Assembly: GCA_012730045.1 (NCBI GenBank)
Contig: JAAYBR010000075.1
Span: 1 to 56,024 of the forward strand
Source of the DNA: Candidatus Hydrogenedentota bacterium
GTDB lineage: Bacteria > Hydrogenedentota > Hydrogenedentia > Hydrogenedentales > CAITNO01
Length of the DNA: 56,024 nt
Direction: 5' to 3'
Shown: one piece after another, positions 10,145-50,257 of the stretch
How positions within the stretch are numbered: position 1 is the stretch's first letter
How the letters are laid out: every line of letters starts with the position of its first letter
Notes under the pieces: model-generated
The model's database searches: none
What the model was told of the DNA's origin: nothing
The model's input: the letters and a program-made list of their open reading frames with translations, nothing else
Made by a program: the position numbers and the translations under genes

Positions 10145-11043
10145 TCCGGCGATCCGTCCAGCCAGCGGCGGGTCAGGCCGCCGTAGGCGTCCACCCGGCG
10201 GTCGCGGAAGAAAGGCCAGTTTCGACGGACTTCCTCCAGGTGGACCGTGTCCACCTCGGAGACCAGCACCTCCTCGTTGTCGGAGGACGCCTCCGCCACG
10301 AGTTCCCCCTGGGGTCCGGCAATAAAGGAACCGCCCCAGAACTCGATGCCTGGCAGGTCGGCGTAGGGCCGTTCCAGGCCGAAGCGGTTGGGCGCAGCCA
10401 CATAAATGCCGTTGGCCACGGCGTGGCCGCGCTGGACGGTTTGCCAGGCGTTATGCTGGAGCGCCCCATGCTGCTCCTTCTCGGCGGGGTGCCACCCGAT
10501 GGCCGTGGGGTAGAACAGGCTGGTGGCACCGGACAGGGCGGCGAGACGGGCCCCCTCGGGGTACCACTGGTCCCAGCAGATCAGCACGGCCACCCGGCCG
10601 AAGGCCGTGTCAAAGGTCCGGAAACCGAGATCCCCCGGCGCAAAGTAGTATTTCTCGTAATACGCGGGGTCGTCGGGAATATGCATCTTCCGGTACAGCC
10701 CGAGGAGCGCGCCGTCCGCGTCAATGACCGCCGCCGTGTTGTGGCACAGGCCGGGGCCGCGCCGCTCAAAGAAGGGAACAATCACCGCCACTCCCAGTTC
10801 CGCCGCCAGGGTTCGAAACGCCGTCACGGCGGGACCGTCGGCCGGTTCGGCCAGATCGAAGAGGGTGATGTCCTCCTTCTGGCAGAGGTAGGGCCACTGG
10901 TAGAGTTCGGGAAGGCAGATGACCTGGCCGCCTTGGGCGGCGGCCTGACGGACCAGGTCCACAGCGCGCGCCTGATTCTCCTGCTCGTCGGGGCCCATGC
11001 GCATCTGCACAGCCGCAATGCGGTATCCGGTGTTTTCGGGCAA
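10141..11043 (-). CDS. aguB: N-carbamoylputrescine amidase
   Basis: Nitrilase-superfamily enzyme that hydrolyses N-carbamoylputrescine to putrescine, CO2 and ammonia. The Glu-Lys-Cys triad is visible: Glu46 in CLPELYQW, Lys119 in YRKMHIPDD and Cys156 in VLICWDQWYPE, with the family insert YEKYYFAPGDLGF. The start codon is TTG with AGGAG ten bases upstream. A TAGAAT at about 11088-11093 (minus strand) is a plausible -10. It is the first gene of a two-gene putrescine operon with aguA. Confidence 0.94.
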   Translation of the reverse strand: MPENTGYRIAAVQMRMGPDEQENQARAVDLVRQAAAQGGQVICLPELYQWPYLCQKEDITLFDLAEPADGPAVTAFRTLAAELGVAVIVPFFERRGPGLCHNTAAVIDADGALLGLYRKMHIPDDPAYYEKYYFAPGDLGFRTFDTAFGRVAVLICWDQWYPEGARLAALSGATSLFYPTAIGWHPAEKEQHGALQHNAWQTVQRGHAVANGIYVAAPNRFGLERPYADLPGIEFWGGSFIAGPQGELVAEASSDNEEVLVSEVDTVHLEEVRRNWPFFRDRRVDAYGGLTRRWLDGSPE

Positions 11044-39554: not shown

Positions 39555-39666
39555 GCGGATAGTATAGGACATTGGCGGCGCGCGGCGGCCGGCTGTCACC
39601 GGAAACCGTTCCGGTGGGTCAGAAAGGGGGGCGGGAAACGGACCGAACCCGTTGACGGAGGCTTGC

Positions 39667-41373
39667 ATGGTCGGAGCGTTGTTGCTGTGTGTCGTTGCGC
39701 TGGGAAACGGCGCCCTGACGCCGTTGGATCCCCCGAAAGCCGGGGGCTGGACGGAATTCGAGGTTGGCGGCGTGGAGGCGGGGGAGCAGAACCCCTGCGA
39801 TCCGGACCAAATTGCCGTTGACGTGGTGTTTTCCCCTGAAGGCGCGCCGACGCTGCGTGTGCCCGCGTTCTGGATGCGGATGGGCGAGAATCCCGGCAGT
39901 TGGCGGGTGCGGTGGCAGGCCGAGTCGCCGGGACGGGTGGCGTACACGGTCCACGCCGGCCTGGATGGGGCGGCCTCGGCCACTGTCGGCACCGGGGAGT
40001 TCACGGTGGCCTCCGGAGAGCGTCCGGCGATGCGGCGCGTCCGGGTGGAGCCCACGAAGAGGCGCTGGTTCCAGCGGGACGACGGCACCCCGCTGGTCCT
40101 GCTGGGGGCCAATGTGTGCTGGGGGCGGCTGGAGGACTACGAGACCTGGCTGGACGGCATGGCCGCCGCCCGCATGAACTGCACGCGCCTCTGGATGTGC
40201 CCCTTCGGCTTCGGGATTGAGGACCGGCCCGGCTCCCGGCTGAACTACGATCAGGACAGGGCGACGGCACTGGACGCGGTGCTGCGCTTGGCTGCGGCGC
40301 GGGGCATTTATGTCATGCTCTGTCTGGATTTCCACGGCATCTTCCAGGATGCCCCCGACATGTGGGGCGGCAACGACTTCTGGCCCTCGCACCCGTACAA
40401 TGCCGCAAACGGGGGGCCGTGCGAAGAGCAGAACGACTTTTTCACCCACCCGGAGGCGCGGGCGCTCTACCAGAAGCGGCTCCGGTACATCGTGGCGCGG
40501 TGGGGGGCCTCTCCGGCGGTTTTCGCCTGGGAGTTCTTCAACGAGTACGACAATGTCTTCCCCAAGCTGCGGCGGCCCGACGTGATCCAGTGGCACGGGG
40601 ACATGGCGGCGTTTCTCAAGAGGACAGACCCCTGGCCGCGGCCGGTGACCACCAGCCTCACCGGGTCGTTGGAGGACCAGGGCCTGTGGGCGTTGCCCGG
40701 ACTGGACATTGCCCAGTACCACCTGTATCTGGGCGAAAAGAGCGCCCCCGCGGGGCTGCGAATCCGGGAGATCGTGCGGCGGTTTCATGAGCGGTACGAC
40801 AAACCCATGCTTTTCGGAGAGTACGGCGTGAGCTTCCGCGGACCGGGCACGGAGGAGGATCCGCTTCTGCGTGGCGTCCGGCAGGGGGTATGGAGCGCGC
40901 TGCTTTCGGGCAGCGCGGGCACCGTGTTTCCGTGGTGGTGGAACCATCTTCACCCGCGCGGGGGATGGGGGACATGGGCGGCCCTCGCCCGTTTCCTGGA
41001 GGGGACCGGGGTGGGCGGCCCCGGCTGGGCACCGGTGGAGGGGGCCACGGCGGTCATCGTGGGGCCGGACGGAACGCCGGGGGCGCCATGTGACGTGTTC
41101 GCCCTGGCCAACGGCGCAAGCGCCTTGGCGTATGTGGTGGACCCCGCCTGCCACTATCCGAACGGGGCGACGGCAACAGATCCGGCACCGGTGCGCGCGC
41201 GGCTGTCGCTGCCCATGACGCCCGCGCCCGGCGCGGTGAGGGTGGAGGTATGGGACCCTGTGAAAGGGGAGAGGGTGTCCGGCATCTCCCTGCCGCGCGG
41301 CCCGGAAACGTTGGAGGTGCTGCTGCCCTTCGCCGTGGACTGCGCGGTGCGCGCGCTTCCATCCGACGAATGA
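39667..41373 (+). CDS. Secreted GH5-like glycoside hydrolase with DUF5060-type N-terminal domain
   Basis: A 568-residue protein with a short hydrophobic signal-like N-terminus (MVGALLLCVVALGNGA). A beta-sandwich (about 22-118) with FEVGG and RVRWQAESPGRVAYTV precedes a TIM barrel. The catalytic acids are Glu293 in WEFFNEYDNV and Glu385 in LFGEYGV, the clan GH-A pattern. A C-terminal beta domain ends the protein. GGAGG lies five bases before the ATG at 39667. The substrate is unknown. It is divergent from the NUDIX gene; the gap holds an 8-bp perfect hairpin at 39597-39616 (CACCGGAA/TTCCGGTG). Confidence 0.78.
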   Translation: MVGALLLCVVALGNGALTPLDPPKAGGWTEFEVGGVEAGEQNPCDPDQIAVDVVFSPEGAPTLRVPAFWMRMGENPGSWRVRWQAESPGRVAYTVHAGLDGAASATVGTGEFTVASGERPAMRRVRVEPTKRRWFQRDDGTPLVLLGANVCWGRLEDYETWLDGMAAARMNCTRLWMCPFGFGIEDRPGSRLNYDQDRATALDAVLRLAAARGIYVMLCLDFHGIFQDAPDMWGGNDFWPSHPYNAANGGPCEEQNDFFTHPEARALYQKRLRYIVARWGASPAVFAWEFFNEYDNVFPKLRRPDVIQWHGDMAAFLKRTDPWPRPVTTSLTGSLEDQGLWALPGLDIAQYHLYLGEKSAPAGLRIREIVRRFHERYDKPMLFGEYGVSFRGPGTEEDPLLRGVRQGVWSALLSGSAGTVFPWWWNHLHPRGGWGTWAALARFLEGTGVGGPGWAPVEGATAVIVGPDGTPGAPCDVFALANGASALAYVVDPACHYPNGATATDPAPVRARLSLPMTPAPGAVRVEVWDPVKGERVSGISLPRGPETLEVLLPFAVDCAVRALPSDE

Positions 41374-41389: not shown

Positions 41390-41419
41390 TTGCACAAATG
41401 GGGGCTTTTCGGGTATGAT
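41390..41419 (+). promoter_or_regulatory. Promoter of the tRNA-Leu gene
   Basis: TTGCAC, 18-base spacer, TATGAT, with the -10 ending 19 bases before the tRNA. It belongs to the chromosome, outside the mobile element's left repeat, so it was the promoter of the original tRNA unit. Confidence 0.75.
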
Positions 41420-41437
41420 AGCGGGTGTCAACCCCCG

Positions 41438-41527
41438 TGCCCGGGTGGTGGAATTGGCAGACACGCTAGACTAAGGATCTAGTCCCTCACGGGGTGCGAG
41501 TTCAAGTCTCGCCTCGGGCACCATTTC
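41438..41527 (+). repeat. attL: 90-bp direct repeat containing tRNA-Leu
   Basis: The 90 bases from TGCCCGGG to CCATTTC are identical to 48846-48935. Identity stops sharply at both ends (preceded by CCG here and TTA there; followed by TTA here and AGA there). This is the left attachment site of the integrated element. Confidence 0.92.
41439..41523 (+). tRNA. tRNA-Leu (anticodon AAG), left copy
   Basis: 85 nt with encoded CCA. The acceptor stem is GCCCGGG/CTCGGGC (one G-U pair) and the D stem GTG/CAC. The anticodon stem is CTAGA/TCTAG with loop CTAAGGA. A long variable arm (CCC-TCAC-GGG) marks a class II tRNA, and the T arm is GCGAG-TTCAAGT-CTCGC. Anticodon positions 34-36 read AAG (codons CUU and, if A34 is deaminated to inosine, CUC/CUA). 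It is identical to the copy at 48847 and forms the left end of the mobile element. Confidence 0.95.
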
Positions 41528-41648
41528 TTATCCCCCCACAGCGTAACGGTTTACAGCTCTTTCACGTTGCGCGGTACTCTCCCCCCTGTTCTACTCCCAG
41601 TAGCCAATAATGCCCAAGAATCGCGCCACAACGCGAAAGGGAAAAGGC

Positions 41649-42662
41649 ATGTTGACTCTATTCAGGCGGGGCGGGGCGTGGTGGTTTCGTCTGCGGCTTT
41701 CAAGCGGCCTCGACATGCGCCGCAGTACCGGGGAAGGGGACAAGGGAAGGGCGGAGCTTGCGGCCTTGCGCATTGTCGCGGGGCTGGAACAGGACGGCCT
41801 CCGGCCCGCGCGCCGTCCCGGCGTCTCCCTCTCCCAGTTGGAGGCAAGGCACGCGGAATGGGCGGCAACGCGCCACACCCCAAAAAGTAGACTGCGGACG
41901 GGATACGCATTTCTTGCCTTGTCCCGGTTCATGCGCGCGGACGTGCTTCCCGCAGACCGTGACGCGCAAGACTTCATTTCAGCACGGGCGCGGGACGTGT
42001 CCCCCATTACCGCAAACGGCGACTTGCGCACCCTGCGGGCCGCGTTCAATGTGGCGGTTTCCTGCGGCTGGATAGCGGAGAATCCTTTCCAGAAGGTAAA
42101 GGCAATCCGAGTCCCCAAGACAGAGCGCGCAACGCTTGACGCCGGGGGCCTCCGGGCGGTTCTGGACATGGCGCGGGACATGGGCGGGGACATGGACATT
42201 GCGGTCCACCTCGCGGGCCTCGCGGGCCTCCGGGCCGGGGAAGTGGCGGCGGCGTCCTGGGATTGGTTCGACTTCACCGCCGGGACAATAACCGTCCGTT
42301 GTGATTCCAGATTCACGCCGAAGGGGAAACGCTCGCGGACGGTCCCCTTGCACCCGGAGCTTGTCGCCTGTCTCCTGCGGCATAGGCGCGACTTGGGCCG
42401 CGTGCTCCGGGCGGAGTCCGTCCCCCGGAAGCCTTGGAAGCTCATACAGGACACCCTCGCGCCCGGTGTGTGCTTTCACGGCCTCCGGCACAGTTGCGCC
42501 TCGTTATGGGCGGCAAACGGCGTCCCGCCTTTCCTGATACAGGCATGGCTTGGGCACAGCTCTATCAGCACAACGGAGGGATATGTGCATTGCGCGGCGA
42601 TTGTTGACCCGCGTTTCAGTTTCGGATTGCCGGAAGCTCCGGCGCAACGCGAAAGGGCATGA
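41649..42662 (+). CDS. Tyrosine-type site-specific integrase
   Basis: A 337-residue tyrosine recombinase that catalyses integration and excision at the tRNA-Leu site. The catalytic residues are Arg195 (AGLRAGEV), His276 and Arg279 (HGLRH), His302 (WLGHSS) and Tyr311 (TTEGYVH), plus a Lys near 225. A short arm-binding-like N-terminus (LFRRGGAWWFRLR) and a SAM-like core domain (about 60-150) precede it. The ATG at 41649 has AAAGGG seven bases upstream; an ATG at 41610 lacks such a site. It lies 121 bases from the left repeat. A 66-residue gene follows after one base. Confidence 0.95.
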   Translation: MLTLFRRGGAWWFRLRLSSGLDMRRSTGEGDKGRAELAALRIVAGLEQDGLRPARRPGVSLSQLEARHAEWAATRHTPKSRLRTGYAFLALSRFMRADVLPADRDAQDFISARARDVSPITANGDLRTLRAAFNVAVSCGWIAENPFQKVKAIRVPKTERATLDAGGLRAVLDMARDMGGDMDIAVHLAGLAGLRAGEVAAASWDWFDFTAGTITVRCDSRFTPKGKRSRTVPLHPELVACLLRHRRDLGRVLRAESVPRKPWKLIQDTLAPGVCFHGLRHSCASLWAANGVPPFLIQAWLGHSSISTTEGYVHCAAIVDPRFSFGLPEAPAQRERA

Positions 42663-42663
42663 C

Positions 42664-42864
42664 ATGGACAAGGCAAGGTTTCAAGAAATGGCGGAAGTGA
42701 CGGGGATTTTCAACGGGGACAGCCTAACAATTGAAGAGGTGCGGGCGTACCTCACAACGGACAACATGTCCGCCATGTTTCCCGGGGAGCCGCCCCGCTA
42801 CACGGAGGCGGAGCTTGCAGGGTTCGCGGCGGAGGTTGTCCGCGCGTGGTGTGTGATAGAATAG
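42664..42864 (+). CDS. Hypothetical 66-residue element protein
   Basis: A small acidic protein (MDKARFQEMAEVTGIF at the start, then TIEEVRAYLTTDNM) with helical character and no recognised domain. It begins one base after the integrase stop with AAAGGG upstream, so it is translated with the integrase. It is followed by a strong hairpin terminator. It could be a regulator of recombination, but nothing in the sequence proves this. Confidence 0.65.
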   Translation: MDKARFQEMAEVTGIFNGDSLTIEEVRAYLTTDNMSAMFPGEPPRYTEAELAGFAAEVVRAWCVIE

Positions 42865-42900
42865 CAGCACCCGCAGGCAGGCCCCCACTTGCACGCGGGA

Positions 42901-42936
42901 AAGGGCGCGGGGTTTGTCAAATGTCCCCGCGCCCTT
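42901..42936 (+). terminator. Terminator of the integrase transcript
   Basis: A perfect 12-bp stem (AAGGGCGCGGGG/CCCCGCGCCCTT) with a 12-nt loop, 36 bases after the stop at 42864. No long U-tract follows (TTGCTA), so it may act in both directions between the two convergent units of the element. Confidence 0.65.
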
Positions 42937-43010
42937 GCTACGTCTGGACGTGTCCACACCACACCCGGCCACCGTTCGGCCCGTGGCGGGCCTGTACGGC
43001 GGCGCAATCG

Positions 43011-43328
43011 CTACCCCTTGCGCCTGATGCTGGGCGTCGCCATTTCTCGCGGTTCTGGCCTGACGCCGTGCGCCTCCAAGTATCCAACGGTCGTATCCGT
43101 CCGCCTAGTCCGCGCGGGGTTGTGTCGCGTTACCTTTACACGCCGTTCCGGTTCCGGTGGCGGCACCTCCCGGAGCACCTCGGCGTTGAACACCTTCCCG
43201 CAGGACAGGCACCGCCTAAATCCCGGTTTGTCATTGACTGCGGCACTGTGCCATGATCCGCAGAAGCACTTGCGCCGGGGGGCCATGCGGACACCCTCGG
43301 CGGTGACGGACTCGGAAGTTTTCAGCAT
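43011..43328 (-). CDS. Small Cys-rich putative zinc-finger protein
   Basis: A 105-residue basic protein. KCFCGSWH near residue 20 and RRCLSCGKVF near residue 40 give two metal-binding pairs (Cys-x-Cys and Cys-x2-Cys) with a His, resembling a zinc ribbon. The C-terminal half is Arg/Pro-rich. The ATG at 43328 has AAGGGG eight bases upstream; the open frame extends further but covers the operator palindrome at 43342-43357. It is the last gene of the element's minus-strand set and is convergent with the integrase unit. Confidence 0.6.
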   Translation of the reverse strand: MLKTSESVTAEGVRMAPRRKCFCGSWHSAAVNDKPGFRRCLSCGKVFNAEVLREVPPPEPERRVKVTRHNPARTRRTDTTVGYLEAHGVRPEPREMATPSIRRKG

Positions 43329-43341
43329 GGGATTACCCCTT

Positions 43342-43357
43342 GTAAAGTGCGCCTTAC
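43342..43357. promoter_or_regulatory. Operator-like palindrome (copy 2)
   Basis: GTAAAGTGCGCCTTAC matches 14 of 16 positions of the perfect palindrome at 48647-48662 in the same element. It lies 14 bases upstream of the zinc-finger gene's ATG, overlapping where a repressor would block expression. Confidence 0.5.
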
Positions 43358-43375
43358 ACAATGGCGGCGCGGTTA

Positions 43376-43567
43376 TCATGGCGTTATGTATACCGTAATG
43401 TCTTTTTGTGTCGGTATGCAAAATGTTTGCGTAGTTGGCAGGGAAAGCCTCTCAGCCCCTCCCCCCCTAGGAAGGACCCGCCATTTTTTCCCAGTGCCCC
43501 AGCAAGGCACCATATAGGCCCATGACGGGCATTTAGTATCTTTTGGGGGTCTGCATACGTCCGGCAT
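43376..43567 (-). CDS. Possible 63-residue protein
   Basis: An open frame with AGGAGG nine bases before its ATG, the best argument for it. The product has four Cys (VCRPPKDTKCPSW, VPCWGTG, TFCIPT), no known domain and unusual composition. It fills most of the otherwise empty 350-bp stretch 43329-43678. The rest of that stretch holds AT-rich patches (ATAAATAGAA and TATAAA on the minus strand, about 43590-43610) that could be its promoter. It could also be chance. Confidence 0.35.
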   Translation of the reverse strand: MPDVCRPPKDTKCPSWAYMVPCWGTGKKWRVLPRGGGAERLSLPTTQTFCIPTQKDITVYITP

Positions 43568-43678
43568 GTTTGCGCGCCTCCTGCGGCTTTATACGGCGTT
43601 CTATTTATCCGGCGGGGGGTTGGACCCCGACCGGGGGAGAGGCATAAAGGGCCTTCCCAGACGAAGCGACTGAAAGCG

Positions 43679-44290
43679 TTAGTTGATGGGCACCGTCGCG
43701 CCTCGCAGGCGCAACACCACCTCATGCAGAAGCGGCGCAGAACCGGGGAGAGATACGCGGGACACGCGGCACCGTGCAATCAGGTCTACGGCGTGATCGG
43801 GCAGCAGCTCGGCCAGCGCGCGGTATTCACTTTCAGCGGCAGCGGTGCGCGGGCTACCGAGTTCGTCCGCGCCGATGGCGGCGGCGCGCTGTAGCAGGTC
43901 CACAGCCTCGCGCACCATGTCACGGCGGGCACCCTCGGCGGCCAGCGCGGCGCGGTGGTCTTCGGTCTGCGCGTCACGGAACGGGCTTCCGGGACGGTGG
44001 GCACCTTCGGCCAGGTCGCGCAGCACGGCGGCAAGGTCGGACTCCAGAAGGGAAACGGCCATGCGCCGGGACTCGCGGTCAGCTTGGGCGGCTTCCCAGC
44101 GGGTGCGCGGCGTCTCCGGGTCTTTCGTGTTCATGCGCAATTCATGCTGATACGCCGTCCACAATTTGGCGGCGTTGGCTTCGGCCTGGGCCAGTAGCGC
44201 GCGGGCGTCTCGGAGGCGGTCGGCGGTGGCGTGGACTTCGGCGGGCATGAAGTGATCAGCGCGGGCGGTCTGTTTGGTCTTAGCGGTCAT
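43679..44290 (-). CDS. Hypothetical coiled-coil element protein
   Basis: A 203-residue Ala/Glu/Arg-rich protein, predicted mostly helical with heptad-like stretches (ADRLRDARALLAQAEANAAK, DRESRRMAVSLLESDLAAVL). It has no recognised motif. AAGGA lies eight bases before the ATG. It follows a 25-bp gap after an 86-residue gene and belongs to the element's minus-strand operon. Scaffold-like or DNA-binding roles are possible but not supported by a motif. Confidence 0.65.
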   Translation of the reverse strand: MTAKTKQTARADHFMPAEVHATADRLRDARALLAQAEANAAKLWTAYQHELRMNTKDPETPRTRWEAAQADRESRRMAVSLLESDLAAVLRDLAEGAHRPGSPFRDAQTEDHRAALAAEGARRDMVREAVDLLQRAAAIGADELGSPRTAAAESEYRALAELLPDHAVDLIARCRVSRVSLPGSAPLLHEVVLRLRGATVPIN

Positions 44291-44314
44291 TGTTAGATTC
44301 CTTTCAGTTGATGA

Positions 44315-44575
44315 TCAGCGGCACAAAAAAATCTTGGCTTCGGCTTCAAGGCACTGGGCACGCGACAGGCGCGGTCGGAACGGCTGGCCATGGATTCCAC
44401 ACCACGGCAGCAGGCGCAGAAACTTTTCCGTTTCCTCCTGGGCGGTCAATTCGCCGTCAAGGTCCAGACCAAACAGACCGGAGGGCGGCGGGGTCGGCTT
44501 ACCAATGGGGCGCGGCCTCGGCGGGTCATTCGGTTGTGGAGGATGCGCGGCAAAATGGGGGTTAGCATGGGTCAT
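44315..44575 (-). CDS. Hypothetical 86-residue element protein
   Basis: A Pro-rich N-terminal third, then a segment GLFGLDLDGELTAQEETEKF and a C-terminal Arg/Cys region. AAGGA stands seven bases before the ATG. Its start overlaps the end of the gene upstream by 14 nt, so it is part of the operon. It has no known domain. Confidence 0.6.
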   Translation of the reverse strand: MTHANPHFAAHPPQPNDPPRPRPIGKPTPPPSGLFGLDLDGELTAQEETEKFLRLLPWCGIHGQPFRPRLSRAQCLEAEAKIFLCR

Positions 44576-44825
44576 TGTGGTTTCCTTTCACGGCTTGCCC
44601 GTTCTGGCCTGTTTCCGGCCCTTGGGGCGTTTTTAGGGTTTCAGCGGATACAGACAAGGCCTCGGAGGTGATCGCGCCTCTACGGGCCTCTGCGGCGGTT
44701 TCTTTTTCCACGCGGCGCGCGACTTCGGCGCGGAGCTGGGCGACAACGGCGCGGACTTCATAGAACGGGCGGCCAGCAGCTTCCATGCGGGCGACTTCGG
44801 CGCGGAGTTCGGTTTCCCTGTTCAC
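44562..44825 (-). CDS. Hypothetical 87-residue helical element protein
   Basis: The GTG start overlaps the stop of the nuclease-like gene (GTGA), with GGAGGTGAG just before it. The first 55 residues are an amphipathic, Glu/Arg-rich helix (RETELRAEVARMEAAG) and the rest is polar. It has no recognised family. The tight coupling to the neighbour suggests a small partner protein. Confidence 0.6.
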   Translation of the reverse strand: MNRETELRAEVARMEAAGRPFYEVRAVVAQLRAEVARRVEKETAAEARRGAITSEALSVSAETLKTPQGPETGQNGQAVKGNHNDPC

Positions 44826-45595
44826 AGCCTCACCTCCAAGACGCGCGCGGACGGACACGCGGCCCGCACTTCGGCGACAGGGACCGGGACGGAGACGGTG
44901 GTGTAATCCGCGTTCCGCGCCAGACGGGCCCCGAAGTGATCAGCCCATTGCAAGCCGTGCTTCCGCCATGCTCCGTAAAGCTCGTGGCCATTGACAGACA
45001 GGCACCTCTTGGGGGTCGGCAAGTAGTACAGGAACACCCGGGCGGGGCGGTCCTGAATCCACCCCGGCCAGACACGGCGCGGGCCGATGTGCGCAAGCTC
45101 CACCAGAACGTCTGACAGCCGTTTCCTGTACGGCCTGATTTTGAGCTGGCACGGGACAAGGCGCGGTTCCCCGGTGACGGCCAGCCAGTAATCAACCCCG
45201 TCTTTATCCTCCCTCAATGTGGCGGGCTTGTACTCCATGAATCCCGGGACCGTTTGCCGGAACAGGCTGGCCAGTTGGCACGGCCCAAGAGTTCCGGCCC
45301 GAAGCTGGGAACCGAAGTCATGGACGGCCCGACAGCCGGACGCCTCCGGCGTCCCGGCGGCGGGGCCTGCCTCCATGTCTTGGGCCGACGGGCGAGACGC
45401 TGAAAGCGTTCGTCCGTCCGGCCCTCTTCCGTTTCCGGAACGGTGCGCCACCTCTTGCGCACCTTCCGGAACAGGGGGGTTCTTAGGGGGGATTTCTCCC
45501 TCTCTCACGTCGTATGCGGTTGCGGTTTCTTTAAGGCCCGCGTACGCCGTTCCGTCTGTATTGTTATACTGATAGGGGTCAGAATGGGCAATCAT
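44822..45595 (-). CDS. Putative PD-(D/E)xK nuclease-like protein
   Basis: A 257-residue protein. The first 100 residues are Pro/Gly-rich and variable. The rest carries KDGVDYW (131-137) and PCQLKIR (148-154), matching the D...(E/Q)xK core of restriction-like nucleases, followed by VELAHIG, PGWIQDRPARVFLYYLP and HELYGAWRK. This order is common in phage and plasmid Holliday-type or recombination nucleases. The ATG at 45595 has GGAGG upstream and overlaps the ATPase gene by 17 nt. The fold is inferred from motif order only. Confidence 0.5.
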   Translation of the reverse strand: MIAHSDPYQYNNTDGTAYAGLKETATAYDVREGEIPPKNPPVPEGAQEVAHRSGNGRGPDGRTLSASRPSAQDMEAGPAAGTPEASGCRAVHDFGSQLRAGTLGPCQLASLFRQTVPGFMEYKPATLREDKDGVDYWLAVTGEPRLVPCQLKIRPYRKRLSDVLVELAHIGPRRVWPGWIQDRPARVFLYYLPTPKRCLSVNGHELYGAWRKHGLQWADHFGARLARNADYTTVSVPVPVAEVRAACPSARVLEVRL

Positions 45596-47162
45596 TGTCC
45601 GCCACCTCCCCCATGCTCTGGAATGTTCCAGTGGGAACAATCGCCTCATAGGCCCTTCCACCGCCCTCCGGTGTCCGCTGTTCCCTGCGGACAAGGCGGT
45701 GAGCTTCGGCGGTTTTGAGAGCTTCCAGCGCGTGCGCGGGTGTCCAGTCCAAAGCGTCTGTCAGTTCCCGGCCAGCGTTGCGCTGGTTTCGGATACCCGA
45801 TTCCGTGACGGCGGCGCGGGGGTTGTCGCGTAGCCACTGGACAAGCTCATGCGCGGCCTGTTCGGCGTTGCGGCGGGTGTCCACCTCAACAAGCGCGCCG
45901 TGCTCCGTCCTTTCCAGCGCGACATGCGCACCGGGTCCGTAGCTGTTTTTCACGATTCCCAGGAACAGGCCTTTTCTGTCCTCACGGGCCAGAAGGGCTA
46001 CCCAACGAGACCGACATGTCAGAGCACTTCCACCACGCGCGGCGTGCTGGTCGGCACGGCCTCCGGCTGCGGCACTAAGTTTGTTGACGTGGTGACTCAC
46101 TACCACGGCGCACCCGGTAGACTCGGCCAGACGCGCCAGCTCCTGGGCTATGGCGTTCATGCTCCCGTTGTCGTTTTCCTGAATCTCCATAATGGACGCC
46201 AGCGGGTCAAGAAAAAGCACGTCCGGTTTATTCTGGCGCACCCATTGCCGGAGCTTTTCGTATGCCGCAGTCTGTACGACGGCCCCGTTTTCCGACAGAG
46301 TGAACAGGGTTCCCATGTCATTGAACACGGCAAGACGGCCCTCATTGAACGCCTCGCGGAGAGCGTTCTGCGGGACGCGGGAGTATGCGCACAAGGTAAG
46401 CAGTCGCTTGCGGACAATCTCGCGCGAATCTTCAGCGGCGACAACGGCGACACGCAACGGACGGGCGGGTGCGAAGCTCGGCCAGACAGTGAAGCCTGTC
46501 GCGCTGGACACGGCCAGCGTTAGAACACAATGAGACTTCCCGAGGCCACTGTCACCTAAGAGCACGCCGAACGTTCCCGGCGGTGGACCGTTCCGGAAAA
46601 GCGGTTCCGGCGGTTCCGGCGCGCCGAGAATGTCAGACGGCACAAGGCCCTCGTCTGCGGACCCGGTGGTGAGTTCCACCACGCGCGCGGCCAGCGCGGC
46701 GGCGTCTGCGGTGTCTCCGTTCCGCAGGCACCCGGCCAGCAACGCGGCGGTCCGTTCGGCGTCACGGGCACGGGCGGCGGCGGCAACGTCCCGCGCGTAT
46801 GCGGGCGCATGGCATGAGGTCGGCGCGGAATCTGTCAGGGCGGACACCTGCTCGGCATTTGGGGCCAGCGGTCCCCCATGCGCCCGGAGGTACTCCGTCA
46901 CCGTGGCGGGGTCAACAGGTTTCCCGGAGTCGGCAAGGTCAACAATCGCGGTCCAGACCTCGCGGTGTTGGCCGACGGCGAAGGGGTCCTTTGTCGCCTC
47001 CAAGATTCCGCGCACCTCCGGCAAGGCGCGGTCCGGGGAGAGTAGCAGGGCTCCCAGCAGGGCGCGCTCAGCCTCAACAGGCGGCTGGCTTTCGGCGGGG
47101 GCGAAACTGGCGCGGACAATCCGCGAAAGGTCTGAATCTTGGGACATTACAGCGGCAGACAT
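45579..47162 (-). CDS. DnaB-N and RepA-like replication ATPase
   Basis: A 527-residue protein. Residues about 28-130 look like the DnaB N-terminal domain (EAERALLGALLLSPD, then DPATVTEYLRAHGG). A RecA/RepA-type ATPase follows: Walker A GDSGLGKS (203-210), VAVVAAEDS, Walker B PDVLFLDPLASI and the motif VVVSHHVNK. A winged-helix-like tail ends it (TESGIRNQRNAGRELTDALD). It most likely unwinds or initiates DNA replication for the element. The ATG at 47162 has GGAGG seven bases upstream and overlaps the ParB-like gene by 16 nt. Confidence 0.8.
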   Translation of the reverse strand: MSAAVMSQDSDLSRIVRASFAPAESQPPVEAERALLGALLLSPDRALPEVRGILEATKDPFAVGQHREVWTAIVDLADSGKPVDPATVTEYLRAHGGPLAPNAEQVSALTDSAPTSCHAPAYARDVAAAARARDAERTAALLAGCLRNGDTADAAALAARVVELTTGSADEGLVPSDILGAPEPPEPLFRNGPPPGTFGVLLGDSGLGKSHCVLTLAVSSATGFTVWPSFAPARPLRVAVVAAEDSREIVRKRLLTLCAYSRVPQNALREAFNEGRLAVFNDMGTLFTLSENGAVVQTAAYEKLRQWVRQNKPDVLFLDPLASIMEIQENDNGSMNAIAQELARLAESTGCAVVVSHHVNKLSAAAGGRADQHAARGGSALTCRSRWVALLAREDRKGLFLGIVKNSYGPGAHVALERTEHGALVEVDTRRNAEQAAHELVQWLRDNPRAAVTESGIRNQRNAGRELTDALDWTPAHALEALKTAEAHRLVRREQRTPEGGGRAYEAIVPTGTFQSMGEVADNDCPF

Positions 47163-48232
47163 TTGAAGCCCTCCGCCTCGAATCCGACAGACACGCGCGG
47201 GCCGTCCGTCCATGACTCAACCTTCTGCCAAAACTCGGAAAGGGCTCCTGTCTCTCGGGTGCTCTGCGGTCCCCCATTGACCCATTCCGGCGCCCCGATA
47301 GGGGCGTAGAAAACAATGTCCGTGTCCGTGGACACGCCGTCCACCTTCACCACGGCCTCGCGCCTAACAGTGAACATGCAGGACGGGGGAACGCCGAACC
47401 AATCACGAAACAGGCAAAGCCCGTCATTCATGCGTTCATTGGGAACCACGACAAAGGCATGGAAGCATTCTTCCGTGTCTGGAAATTCAAGGCGGCGGAG
47501 CGTCTTGTGCTCCATGTTCCAGTCGGGGTAAATCGCCAGAACCCGGAAGTCATAGACGGGTCGCGCGTCCTCTTTTTTCTTTCGTTCCGCCTTCTTCACC
47601 TGCTGGTCAGCGGCGTTCAATGAGACTTCCCCGGCCCTCACCTTTTCCAGAAGCTCGGGGGCCTCCTGCTGGATTTTCTTGGCGGTGGCGACAGAGCGGG
47701 CGGACACACCCAGCATTGCAGCCGCGTCGTCTGCGGCGCGGTGCTCCCTCTCCGTCTCGGGATTGCCTCCGTGCAAATTTGCACTATCCCTATCGGGCGT
47801 CTTTCCAGGCCTTCCCTTGCCTCCGATTGTTGCGCCCTTTTTGGCGCCCTCAACCTTTCTTTCCCGCGCCTCCGGTTCCAGCAGGGGCAAGACGTCTGTT
47901 GCTATTGCGGCCCGCTGTCCGGGGGTGAGGTGGCGGCGGTGAAGGTTCCACGACAGAACGTCTAGGACAGGCTGCGTGCCAACGTAGGACGTGACGCGCG
48001 GTTCCACGTCCGCCAGAAGGCAGGCGCGGTATCTGTTGCGCCCGTCTAGGATTTTCCCCTGGTAGACAACAATGTCCTCGCGCTGGCCGTTCTCGTTTAT
48101 GTCTTTTGCGAGTTCGGCCAGGTCGGCGTCAGACATGAGCGGGAACAGTTCCGCGATTGGGTGGTCCGTGTACTCGTACACGCCACCCCTTTTTTCCTGC
48201 TTGACTTCTTGGGCGTGATCAGTTAGACTCAT
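47147..48232 (-). CDS. ParB-like protein fused to a degenerate MT-A70 methyltransferase domain
   Basis: A 361-residue protein. The N-terminal ParB/sulfiredoxin domain has HPIAELFPLMSDADLAELA and the nucleotide-site motif DGRNRYRAC. An HTH segment (AAMLGVSARSVATAKKI) and a charged helix follow. The last 130 residues resemble phage ParB-MT-A70 DNA adenine methylases: FRVLAIYPDWNM takes the DPPW position, then AFVVVPNERMNDGLCLFRDWFGV. The catalytic DPPW is YPDW, so the enzyme is probably inactive. The start ATG has GGAGG seven bases upstream. Role inferred: DNA binding or partition for the element. Confidence 0.72.
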   Translation of the reverse strand: MSLTDHAQEVKQEKRGGVYEYTDHPIAELFPLMSDADLAELAKDINENGQREDIVVYQGKILDGRNRYRACLLADVEPRVTSYVGTQPVLDVLSWNLHRRHLTPGQRAAIATDVLPLLEPEARERKVEGAKKGATIGGKGRPGKTPDRDSANLHGGNPETEREHRAADDAAAMLGVSARSVATAKKIQQEAPELLEKVRAGEVSLNAADQQVKKAERKKKEDARPVYDFRVLAIYPDWNMEHKTLRRLEFPDTEECFHAFVVVPNERMNDGLCLFRDWFGVPPSCMFTVRREAVVKVDGVSTDTDIVFYAPIGAPEWVNGGPQSTRETGALSEFWQKVESWTDGPRVSVGFEAEGFKCLPL

Positions 48233-48290
48233 TTTGTTACCTCCGTCCCGGGAACGCACAATCAGGGAACCCGGCGACATTCTGGCCTCG

Positions 48291-48506
48291 CTAGTTACAG
48301 CTGGCGGGGCCTTTTCTTTTTGCCCCTGGAGTTACAGCCCCGGAGGCGGATTCAAATCCGACGGCCAGCGCGGCCAGCGCCTCGCGGGATATGCGCAAGT
48401 CGCGCCCAAGACGGACAGCGGCCAGCCGCCCGGAGGCAACCAAGCGGTAAACTGTAACCGGGGAACATTGAAGTTCTTCGGCGACTTGGGCAACCCGTAA
48501 ATACAT
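48291..48506 (-). CDS. Excisionase-like HTH DNA-binding protein
   Basis: A 71-residue protein of the helix-turn-helix type found in AlpA, Xis and MerR-like small regulators: MYLRVAQVAEELQCSPVTVYR, then GRLAAVRLGRDLRISREALAAL. AGGAG precedes the ATG. As the first gene of the minus operon next to the right attachment site, it may direct excision or switch transcription. Confidence 0.8.
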   Translation of the reverse strand: MYLRVAQVAEELQCSPVTVYRLVASGRLAAVRLGRDLRISREALAALAVGFESASGAVTPGAKRKGPASCN

Positions 48507-48646
48507 TTGCTGTCTCCTATTCTGTACTACCTTAGCCTAACATGTCCAAAGTGTATCAGACACCCCCTGTAAAAATCAAGTGACACCAGCCGTTTCAGGG
48601 CCTGATAAAACCCTAAAATTAGGACGTTACCAGACACCCGGGGAGG

Positions 48647-48662
48647 GTAAAGCGCGCTTTAC
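48647..48662. promoter_or_regulatory. Operator-like perfect palindrome (copy 1)
   Basis: GTAAAGCGCGCTTTAC is a perfect 16-bp palindrome ending one base before the -35 hexamer at 48664. A near-identical copy (14/16) is at 43342-43357. This pattern suggests a dimeric repressor. Confidence 0.6.
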
Positions 48663-48663
48663 A

Positions 48664-48692
48664 TTGACACGGGACGGCGGAAACGGTAGACT
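48664..48692 (+). promoter_or_regulatory. Near-consensus sigma70 promoter facing the right tRNA copy
   Basis: TTGACA, 17-base spacer, TAGACT on the plus strand. No gene lies between it and the tRNA at 48847, so it would supply a promoter for the right tRNA copy or make a short RNA. Confidence 0.65.
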
Positions 48693-48845
48693 GAACGCCG
48701 ACAATTGAACAGACCGGGTTGAATGTGTGCCCAAAAAGTGTGCCAAAACAGGCCGAAAACTTGGGCATTATTCACTACTGGCGATAGTTGAATTAGAACA
48801 GGGCGGCATATTCTAAACGCTTGATAATGCGGCGTTTATAACTTA

Positions 48846-48935
48846 TGCCCGGGTGGTGGAATTGGCAGACACGCTAGACTAAGGATCTAGTCCCTCACGG
48901 GGTGCGAGTTCAAGTCTCGCCTCGGGCACCATTTC
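48846..48935 (+). repeat. attR: 90-bp direct repeat containing tRNA-Leu
   Basis: Identical to 41438-41527; sequences diverge immediately outside. This is the right attachment site of the element. Confidence 0.92.
48847..48931 (+). tRNA. tRNA-Leu (anticodon AAG), right copy
   Basis: Identical over all 85 nt to the tRNA at 41439, with encoded CCA and a complete cloverleaf. It lies at the right end of the mobile element and is followed by a strong terminator that belongs to the chromosome. Confidence 0.95.
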
Positions 48936-48944
48936 AGACAATGA

Positions 48945-48979
48945 AAGCCTCCGCAACGCGTTGCGGAGGCTTCTTCTTT
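48945..48979 (+). terminator. Bidirectional Rho-independent terminator
   Basis: AAGCCTCCGCAA, loop CGCG, TTGCGGAGGCTT: a 28-bp perfect palindrome giving a 12-bp stem, followed by CTTCTTT on the plus strand and TTTCATT on the minus strand. It ends the tRNA transcript and also the oxidoreductase operon that stops at 48989. Confidence 0.88.
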
Positions 48980-48988
48980 GCCGGGGGA

Positions 48989-50257
48989 TCACACCGGGTT
49001 GGTGTAGATGCGCGCCGGTCCGGCGTAGGGGTCGAAGACCGTGATGCCGTTCCGGTTGAAGATGGCCGTCACGGGCGCGCCGAGGCCCTTTTCCAGGTAT
49101 TCGTGGTTGCGCCGGACCACCTCGCGGGCGGCGTGCACGATGAGCACGGAGACGCGGGCCTGTTCGGCGTTGGGATAGTGGGGGGCCAGCTCGTCCAGGG
49201 TTTTCCCCAGGAACTTCATTTCCGCCACCTTTTCCACACAGACCACGAGGCTGTCCACGCCGTAGCCGACATAGGCGGGCGGGCCGCTTTCCCGGGGCAC
49301 GTCGCGGGTGAAGTGGGTGTTGGCCGTGCGCATGCCCCCGCCCCGGTGCAGAAAGCGCAGGCCCCGGTACTGGCTGTCGGACTCCACCAGCCCGTCGGTG
49401 CCGAAAAGCTGGCTCTCCTGGTTGACCGGCCCCTCAAAACCCTCCGGCAGGATCCAGCTGTTGATGAAGTCAATGCTCATGCCATTGTCGAACTGGACCT
49501 TCACCTGCACGGCGTCGAACGCGTCCAGGTTGAAGTCGCGGCGGAGCTTCTTTTTCTGGCCGACGGCGTGGAGGGACACGGGCTTGACGCCGAAGTAGGC
49601 GACATAGAGGTCGGTCCAGTGGCAGCCCACATAGCTGAAGGGGTCGCTCTTCCCGGCCCACTTCGCGAAGGCCCCGGTGGACACTGACAGCGGCTCCTCC
49701 AGCACGGCGCGCCCGTAGAGCGGGTCGCCGATGCGGTTTGCGATGTCGTCGCGCAGGCGCAGGTGGTCGGGGTCGTAGCGCTTGTGCATGTCCACGCCCA
49801 CGATGCGGTTGGCCTTCCGCGCCGCCACGAGCACCGCGTCCGCCTCGTTGGCGTCCAGCGTCATGGGCTTTTCCGTGATGACGTGGACGCCGCGCTCCAG
49901 CGCCGCCAGGATGGGCGCCGTGTGCAGGTGGTCCGGCGTGGCCACGGCGAGGATGTCGAGGTCGGGGAAGCCGTTCAGAAGGTCCACCCAGGGGGTCTCG
50001 CCGTGGTACAGGGCGAAGTCCGGGCCGTGCGCGGCGAACTCCTCCCGCTTGCGCAGGCCGCTGGCCTCGGTGTTCGTGGCGAGGGCGACGAAATTCACGC
50101 GGATGTCGCCCAGTTCCCGGGCGCGGTCATCCAGCCCGAGACGTCCCAGCCAGGGTGGCAGGCCGCCGCGCTGGAGCTGGGCATAGGTGCGCAGATGCAC
50201 GTCGCCGCCGAACATGCCGGCGCCGACGAGTCCTATGGTGAGGACACGTTCCGTCAT
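48989..50257 (-). CDS. Gfo/Idh/MocA-family oxidoreductase
   Basis: A 422-residue NAD(P)-dependent oxidoreductase for sugars or sugar derivatives. The Rossmann motif is GLVGAGMFGGDVH, then VATPDHLHTAPILAAL and the family signature TEKPMTL, with DMHKRYDP further on. It is longer than usual because of extra N-terminal residues (about 35-60). The ATG overlaps the parvulin stop (ATGA). The open frame extends upstream but inside the neighbour. The substrate is unknown. Confidence 0.88.
   Translation of the reverse strand: MTERVLTIGLVGAGMFGGDVHLRTYAQLQRGGLPPWLGRLGLDDRARELGDIRVNFVALATNTEASGLRKREEFAAHGPDFALYHGETPWVDLLNGFPDLDILAVATPDHLHTAPILAALERGVHVITEKPMTLDANEADAVLVAARKANRIVGVDMHKRYDPDHLRLRDDIANRIGDPLYGRAVLEEPLSVSTGAFAKWAGKSDPFSYVGCHWTDLYVAYFGVKPVSLHAVGQKKKLRRDFNLDAFDAVQVKVQFDNGMSIDFINSWILPEGFEGPVNQESQLFGTDGLVESDSQYRGLRFLHRGGGMRTANTHFTRDVPRESGPPAYVGYGVDSLVVCVEKVAEMKFLGKTLDELAPHYPNAEQARVSVLIVHAAREVVRRNHEYLEKGLGAPVTAIFNRNGITVFDPYAGPARIYTNPV

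Follow-up and report, generated by a model that had tools for sequence, protein, structure and literature searches.

Why should one stretch of bacterial DNA carry two complete and identical tRNA-Leu genes, the first with a promoter but no terminator and the second with a terminator but no promoter of the same kind? The question is raised by a contig of 56,024 nt (JAAYBR010000075.1; 'the window' below means this whole stretch), in which ARAGORN finds exactly two tRNAs, at 41439-41523 and 48847-48931, both tRNA-Leu(AAG). The original prediction, made from the letters alone, was that an integrase-bearing mobile element lying between two identical 90-bp repeats had split a single promoter-tRNA-terminator unit. 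Our answer is that 41438-48935 is very probably an integrated element of a tyrosine integrase family seen here in a single family of Candidatus Hydrogenedentota. Its attachment (att) site holds a complete tRNA-Leu(AAG), and it has probably recombined with the host's single tRNA-Leu gene, leaving the promoter on the left and the terminator on the right, 7.5 kb apart; a promoter of its own would express the integrase gene (int) in the circular state. The features concerned are these:

41390..41419, plus strand: host-side tRNA-Leu promoter TTGCAC-18-TATGAT (TTGCAC 41390-41395, TATGAT 41414-41419), with spacing and position as in most relatives
41438..41527, plus strand: attL, the left att block, with complete tRNA-Leu(AAG) at 41439-41523 (ARAGORN, repeat comparison)
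41597..41620, plus strand: left arm-type site with AGTAGCCAATAATGCCCAAGAA core, just before int, conserved in five elements
41649..42662, plus strand: tyrosine integrase, start MLTLFRRGG (Pfam PF00589, E 2.6e-15; phrog_1, E 5.4e-51; aligned starts)
48647..48662, no strand: perfect 16-bp palindrome GTAAAGCGCGCTTTAC, candidate operator, directly upstream of the right-end promoter (from the sequence)
48664..48692, plus strand: right-end promoter TTGACA-17-TAGACT, candidate circle-state int promoter (pattern scan; also in three related elements, E2, E3 and E5, described below)
48755..48781, minus strand: right arm-type site, inverted to the left arm (AAAACTTGGGCATTATT..CTA; inverted repeat comparison)
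48846..48935, plus strand: attR, the right att block, with complete tRNA-Leu(AAG) at 48847-48931 (ARAGORN, repeat comparison)
48945..48972, plus strand: host-side tRNA terminator hairpin, 12 pairs, loop 4 (hairpin pattern; relatives have comparable hairpins)

The two 90-nt repeats, 41438-41527 and 48846-48935, are indeed 100% identical, each contains the tRNA as predicted, and their flanks diverge immediately on both sides. They are the only copies in the 4.46-Mb genome (155 contigs), where the next-best match is a distinct tRNA-Leu(CAG) at 73%, and the insertion accounts for a net gain of 7408 bp. Misassembly at the repeats was considered and judged unlikely: two contigs of this genome share an exact overlap of 127 nt, the final k-mer size of the assembly thus appears to have been 127, and since this exceeds the 90-bp repeat a misjoin there is not to be expected. 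An annotation that shows two complete copies of a tRNA can be showing attL and attR.

What lies outside the repeats differs between the two copies. The 70 nt preceding the left copy fit the pattern TTGnnn-18-TAnnnT and those preceding the right copy do not, and a terminator-type hairpin follows the right copy and is absent after the left. The left promoter, which the original prediction had placed outside the element, is of a kind rarely met by chance (a score of at least 8/12 is reached by only ~4% of random 70-nt windows in the region), and most of 25 other genomes of the order have the same pattern 38-51 nt upstream of tRNA-Leu(AAG), ending 10-20 nt before the tRNA; the counterparts in genomes G007 and G002 read TTGCAT-18-TATGAT and TTGCAA-18-TATCAT. 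The predicted 12-bp-stem terminator was likewise recovered, with a modest T-run (CTTCTTTG); terminator-like patterns as a class are not enriched in the region (9 observed, 10.4 in shuffles), and in many of the 25 relatives a terminator hairpin lies no more than a few tens of nt 3' of the tRNA. Rejoined, promoter, tRNA and terminator form a 175-bp unit. Because the strong match to tRNA-Leu(AAG) is single in its locus in all 25 relatives (not the identical genomic site), with the promoter adjacent in most and the terminator in many, and because the left copy fits the promoter and the right copy the terminator, the view that one such unit was opened by the element is well supported by these comparisons. 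The left copy would have retained the host promoter and lost the terminator, and the right copy would have retained the terminator and lost the promoter.

The original prediction had itself named a case that would speak against a split unit, an old tandem duplication; in this reading two tRNA-Leu(AAG) genes existed first and the gap between them was filled later, by an element or by ordinary DNA. Such a history would account for the completeness of both copies, which is unusual for attL and attR (Islander seeks one regenerated gene and one fragment; PMC4383910). No tandem pair without an element was found, however, at the loci of any of the 25 relatives, and the 100% identity of the copies, the restriction of the promoter to the left and the terminator to the right, the integrase with paired inverted arm sites exactly at the copies and the recurrence of the same layout at tRNA-Ala, tRNA-His and tRNA-Leu(CAA) all argue for insertion, so that we consider the duplication very improbable.

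This recurrence was seen in four elements related to that of the window (E1), of which E2, E4 and E5 lie in genome G002 and E3 in genome G007, with integrases 46-62% identical to that of E1. Close relatives of the integrase are confined to the same bacterial family; alignment against general genome contigs gave nothing, and against viral contigs two weak matches. E2 (integrase 61% identical) sits at tRNA-His, with a promoter and the 5' half of the tRNA at its left end and a promoter, the complete tRNA and a terminator at its right end. In E3, a truncated int is bounded by two complete copies of tRNA-Ala(GGC), 3.2 kb from each other. E4 (integrase 53% identical), at tRNA-Leu(AAG), has int at the other end, with the tRNA flipped relative to int, and its right copy is missing the first 2 nt; E5, at tRNA-Leu(CAA), has a right copy without the first 7 nt and with the promoter kept. 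The exact shared att blocks of E1-E5 measure 90, 103, 82, 90 and 101 nt, and in tRNA coordinates extend from 0 to 89, -58 to 44, -4 to 77, 3 to 92 and 8 to 108, that is, over the whole or nearly whole tRNA, or in E2 over the promoter and 5' half. The original prediction had singled out the carriage of a whole tRNA copy instead of only a 3' end; the copy is complete, although this is not peculiar to E1 and represents one end of the family's range of long att blocks. Every block includes tRNA positions 8-44 and therefore contains the anticodon loop. The left arm before int is kept in five of the five elements, as is the inverted right arm at the far end, which is weaker in E3 and E4; in E1 the inverted partner of the left arm lies at 48760-48781 (91%).

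In G002 the sole complete tRNA-His found is the right copy of E2, which has element DNA upstream of its promoter. In the window's own genome, contigs C83 (positions 1-127 of the stretch read) and C100 (positions 10400-10526 of the stretch read) have identical 127-nt ends over a promoter and tRNA-His, and this overlap is an assembly-graph branch at the tRNA that holds E2 in G002, possibly reflecting a strain with an element there.

How such an element might be expressed is suggested by ICEKp1, in which the tRNA promoter drives int and the tRNA terminator is displaced when the element is integrated, while a promoter at the 3' end drives int when it is excised, ICEclc and ICEEc1 being alike; there, transcription has been shown experimentally (PMC13023037). 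As in these three elements, int of the window element follows the tRNA directly and on the same strand, the tRNA terminator has ended up at the far end, and a far-end promoter points at the att site and would drive int after excision. The integrase would recombine the att block of the element with the host's single tRNA-Leu gene, the crossover probably falling at the anticodon loop: the anticodon stem and its 7-nt loop resemble a core site (PMC8371274), and the shared positions 8-44 fit recombination at this loop, although they are no proof of it. In the integrated state the host promoter would then produce a transcript of the left tRNA and int, and in the excised circle transcription from the right-end promoter at 48664-48692 would run through the tRNA and on into int. 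The anatomy, the conservation of arms and promoter and the recurrence in four further elements are direct observations; excision, the crossover point, transcription and tRNA function are inferred. Unlike ICEKp1, the window element is only 7.4 kb long, has no recognised conjugation genes and has an att block comprising the whole tRNA and not its 3' end, and the likeness is one of sequence.

The right-end promoter is the top of five promoter-pattern matches, where 1.3 +/- 0.9 were expected, and in E1, E2, E3 and E5 a promoter of the form TTGAC(A/G)-17/18-TAnnCT lies 167-205 nt upstream of the right tRNA; the half-site TAAAGCG of the palindrome also precedes this promoter in E2 and E5. The original prediction had described a strong promoter belonging to the element and facing the right tRNA copy. 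The promoter is present, and in the integrated state could serve that copy, but a role in expressing int from the excised circle is the better reading. The tRNA is reversed in E4 and the right tRNA is defective in E5, which nonetheless keeps the promoter, so int in the circle is the more likely conserved target. In all five elements, the flipped-tRNA E4 included, the orientation of the far end is through att and towards int.

Were the right tRNA the true target, the element would exist to deliver a spare or replacement tRNA, much as in tRNA-dependent lysogeny. The promoter does face the right copy in E1, E2 and E3, E1 and E3 contain complete tRNAs, and the only complete tRNA-His found in G002 is fed by element-side DNA. 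Against this, E4 keeps its promoter end towards int with the tRNA flipped, E5 keeps its promoter before a tRNA lacking its first 7 nt, and in tRNA-dependent lysogeny the att site is a core of ~10 bp with the tRNA as a separate gene (PMC10865867). We therefore think a dedicated tRNA carrier unlikely.

A second possibility concerns the copy and not the promoter: the right tRNA may be a passive remnant, the att block being merely long enough to span an 85-nt tRNA. We give this a little under an even chance. Block lengths stay within 82-103 nt whatever the tRNA type, and the blocks of E4 and E5 begin inside the acceptor arm, producing defective right copies. In E1 and E3, by contrast, the block edges lie 5 nt or less from the tRNA ends and the copies are identical, as if completeness had been kept, although recent insertion would be compatible with this as well. 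More tentatively, and with rather less confidence, the att sites could be exchangeable cassettes of ~90-100 bp (a whole tRNA, or a promoter and 5' half) held between fixed arms, excision yielding a promoter-tRNA-int operon. If so, a working host tRNA gene would travel with the element between cells, and a swap of cassette could give the element a new target.

Several observations weigh against the integrated-element account and its circle-state promoter. Only the -10 of that promoter is retained in E4, which has no good -35. Of the four comparison elements, three (E2, E4 and E5) are from the single genome G002. Contig breaks fall within these elements, so that each has its two ends on different contigs, and the ends were assigned to one another through the common tRNA block and the agreement of their arms. 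The integrase of E3 in G007 is truncated. Folding of the int leader was not significant against shuffles (z -1.42), and an attenuator hairpin after the left tRNA, which we considered by analogy with ICEKp1, is unsupported by that test. No contig containing a circle junction was seen among the repeat copies found in the genome, and an empty site with exact flanks was not found in the available genomes. The site is flanked by a hydrolase gene at 39652 on the left and an oxidoreductase gene at 48989 on the right. A same-genus assembly contains neither tRNA-Leu(AAG) nor the right-flank gene, and its left-flank gene stops matching partway along, at 41105. The oxidoreductase is present in the other genomes of the family except the same-genus one, the hydrolase is present in some, and tRNA-Leu(AAG) lies beside neither gene in the stretches read from family genomes.

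Elements of this kind are known, and what makes the present ones a variant is the length of their att blocks, some of which span a whole tRNA, together with the mixed polarity seen among related elements. Like the islands in Islander, the window element combines a tyrosine integrase, a tRNA gene (tDNA) as target and tDNA copies at both ends; anticodon-centred att sites form one of two common classes there. Islander lists 3760 islands with 3' tDNA fragments and 159 with 5' fragments (PMC4383910), whereas the second copy here is complete and the related elements include both polarities as well as whole copies. The att layout of E2 resembles that of pTN3-like archaeal integrases (PMC8371274) in carrying the promoter side and 5' half, and the restored tRNA would therefore be fed by the element; the window element differs from these in carrying the whole tRNA. 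It shares with the phages of tRNA-dependent lysogeny (PMC10865867) the carriage of a cognate tRNA, except that here the tRNA itself, within a 90-nt block, is the att site. Tycheposons, as described second-hand in PMC10872708, likewise pair a bordering tRNA with a tyrosine recombinase; cargo of the tycheposon type was not seen in the window element. To the extent of a limited search of open-licence papers, no published description of this element family was found.

How integrases switch tRNA target and yet keep the tRNA intact is poorly understood. Because the five related elements have arms and promoter in common and yet differ in the tRNA block, of which there are four kinds (Leu(AAG) twice, His, Ala and Leu(CAA), with differing extents and one reversed orientation), target switching becomes directly comparable among them. 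Their hosts belong to one family of Candidatus Hydrogenedentota, and the circle-promoter logic of ICEKp1 would thereby reach small elements of a phylum that is distant and uncultured.

The 7.3 kb between the repeats hold the predicted integrase gene, here assigned to the tyrosine type, as well as genes of replication type and one resembling an excisionase. Aligned starts make 41649 the most likely start of the integrase. The remaining open reading frames (ORFs) are:

43011..43421, minus strand: small ORF, 136 aa, no family match (ORF list, Pfam, PHROGs)
43679..44290, minus strand: ORF, 203 aa, no family match above cut-off (ORF list, Pfam, PHROGs)
44822..45694, minus strand: ORF, 290 aa, no family match (ORF list, Pfam, PHROGs, NCBIfam)
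45579..47213, minus strand: DnaB-N and AAA_25 (RepA-type) replication ATPase (PF13481, E 3.3e-33; PF00772, E 6.4e-18)
47147..48280, minus strand: ParB-like protein (phrog_21315, E 3e-19; phrog_4715; half of the protein is ~40% identical to plasmid ParB-N proteins)
48291..48506, minus strand: excisionase-like HTH_17 protein, candidate recombination directionality factor (PF12728, E 2.8e-13; TIGR01764 'excise' above its cut-off)

The replication ATPase has weak matches only, to phage RepA/primase, and no relatives among viral contigs. The main ORFs gave no match to relaxases or type IV secretion in Pfam, PHROGs or NCBIfam, and no capsid, packaging or capsid-interference genes were recognised by Pfam or PHROGs, several ORFs being matchless; the DnaB- and ParB-like genes are compatible with a phage satellite (phage-inducible chromosomal island, PICI, or P4-like). 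The GC content of the element is a few per cent under that of its flanks, with the minimum at the right end.

The anticodon of tRNA-Leu is AAG in 29 of 29 scanned loci from relatives across the order, and since it is AAG the tRNA would need A34-to-inosine editing; tRNA-Leu(IAG) has been reported as notable in Lactobacillales (PMC13249217). The window's genome contains a strong match to a TadA-like deaminase. Less closely related integrases in the order likewise follow tRNAs, although most of their contigs end before the other end of the element. One that can be followed, on contig C125 of genome G054, lies beside tRNA-Arg(TCT) and has an apparently canonical 51-nt 3' tRNA fragment, 84% alike, 9.9 kb away, and is a useful contrast to the whole-tRNA family.

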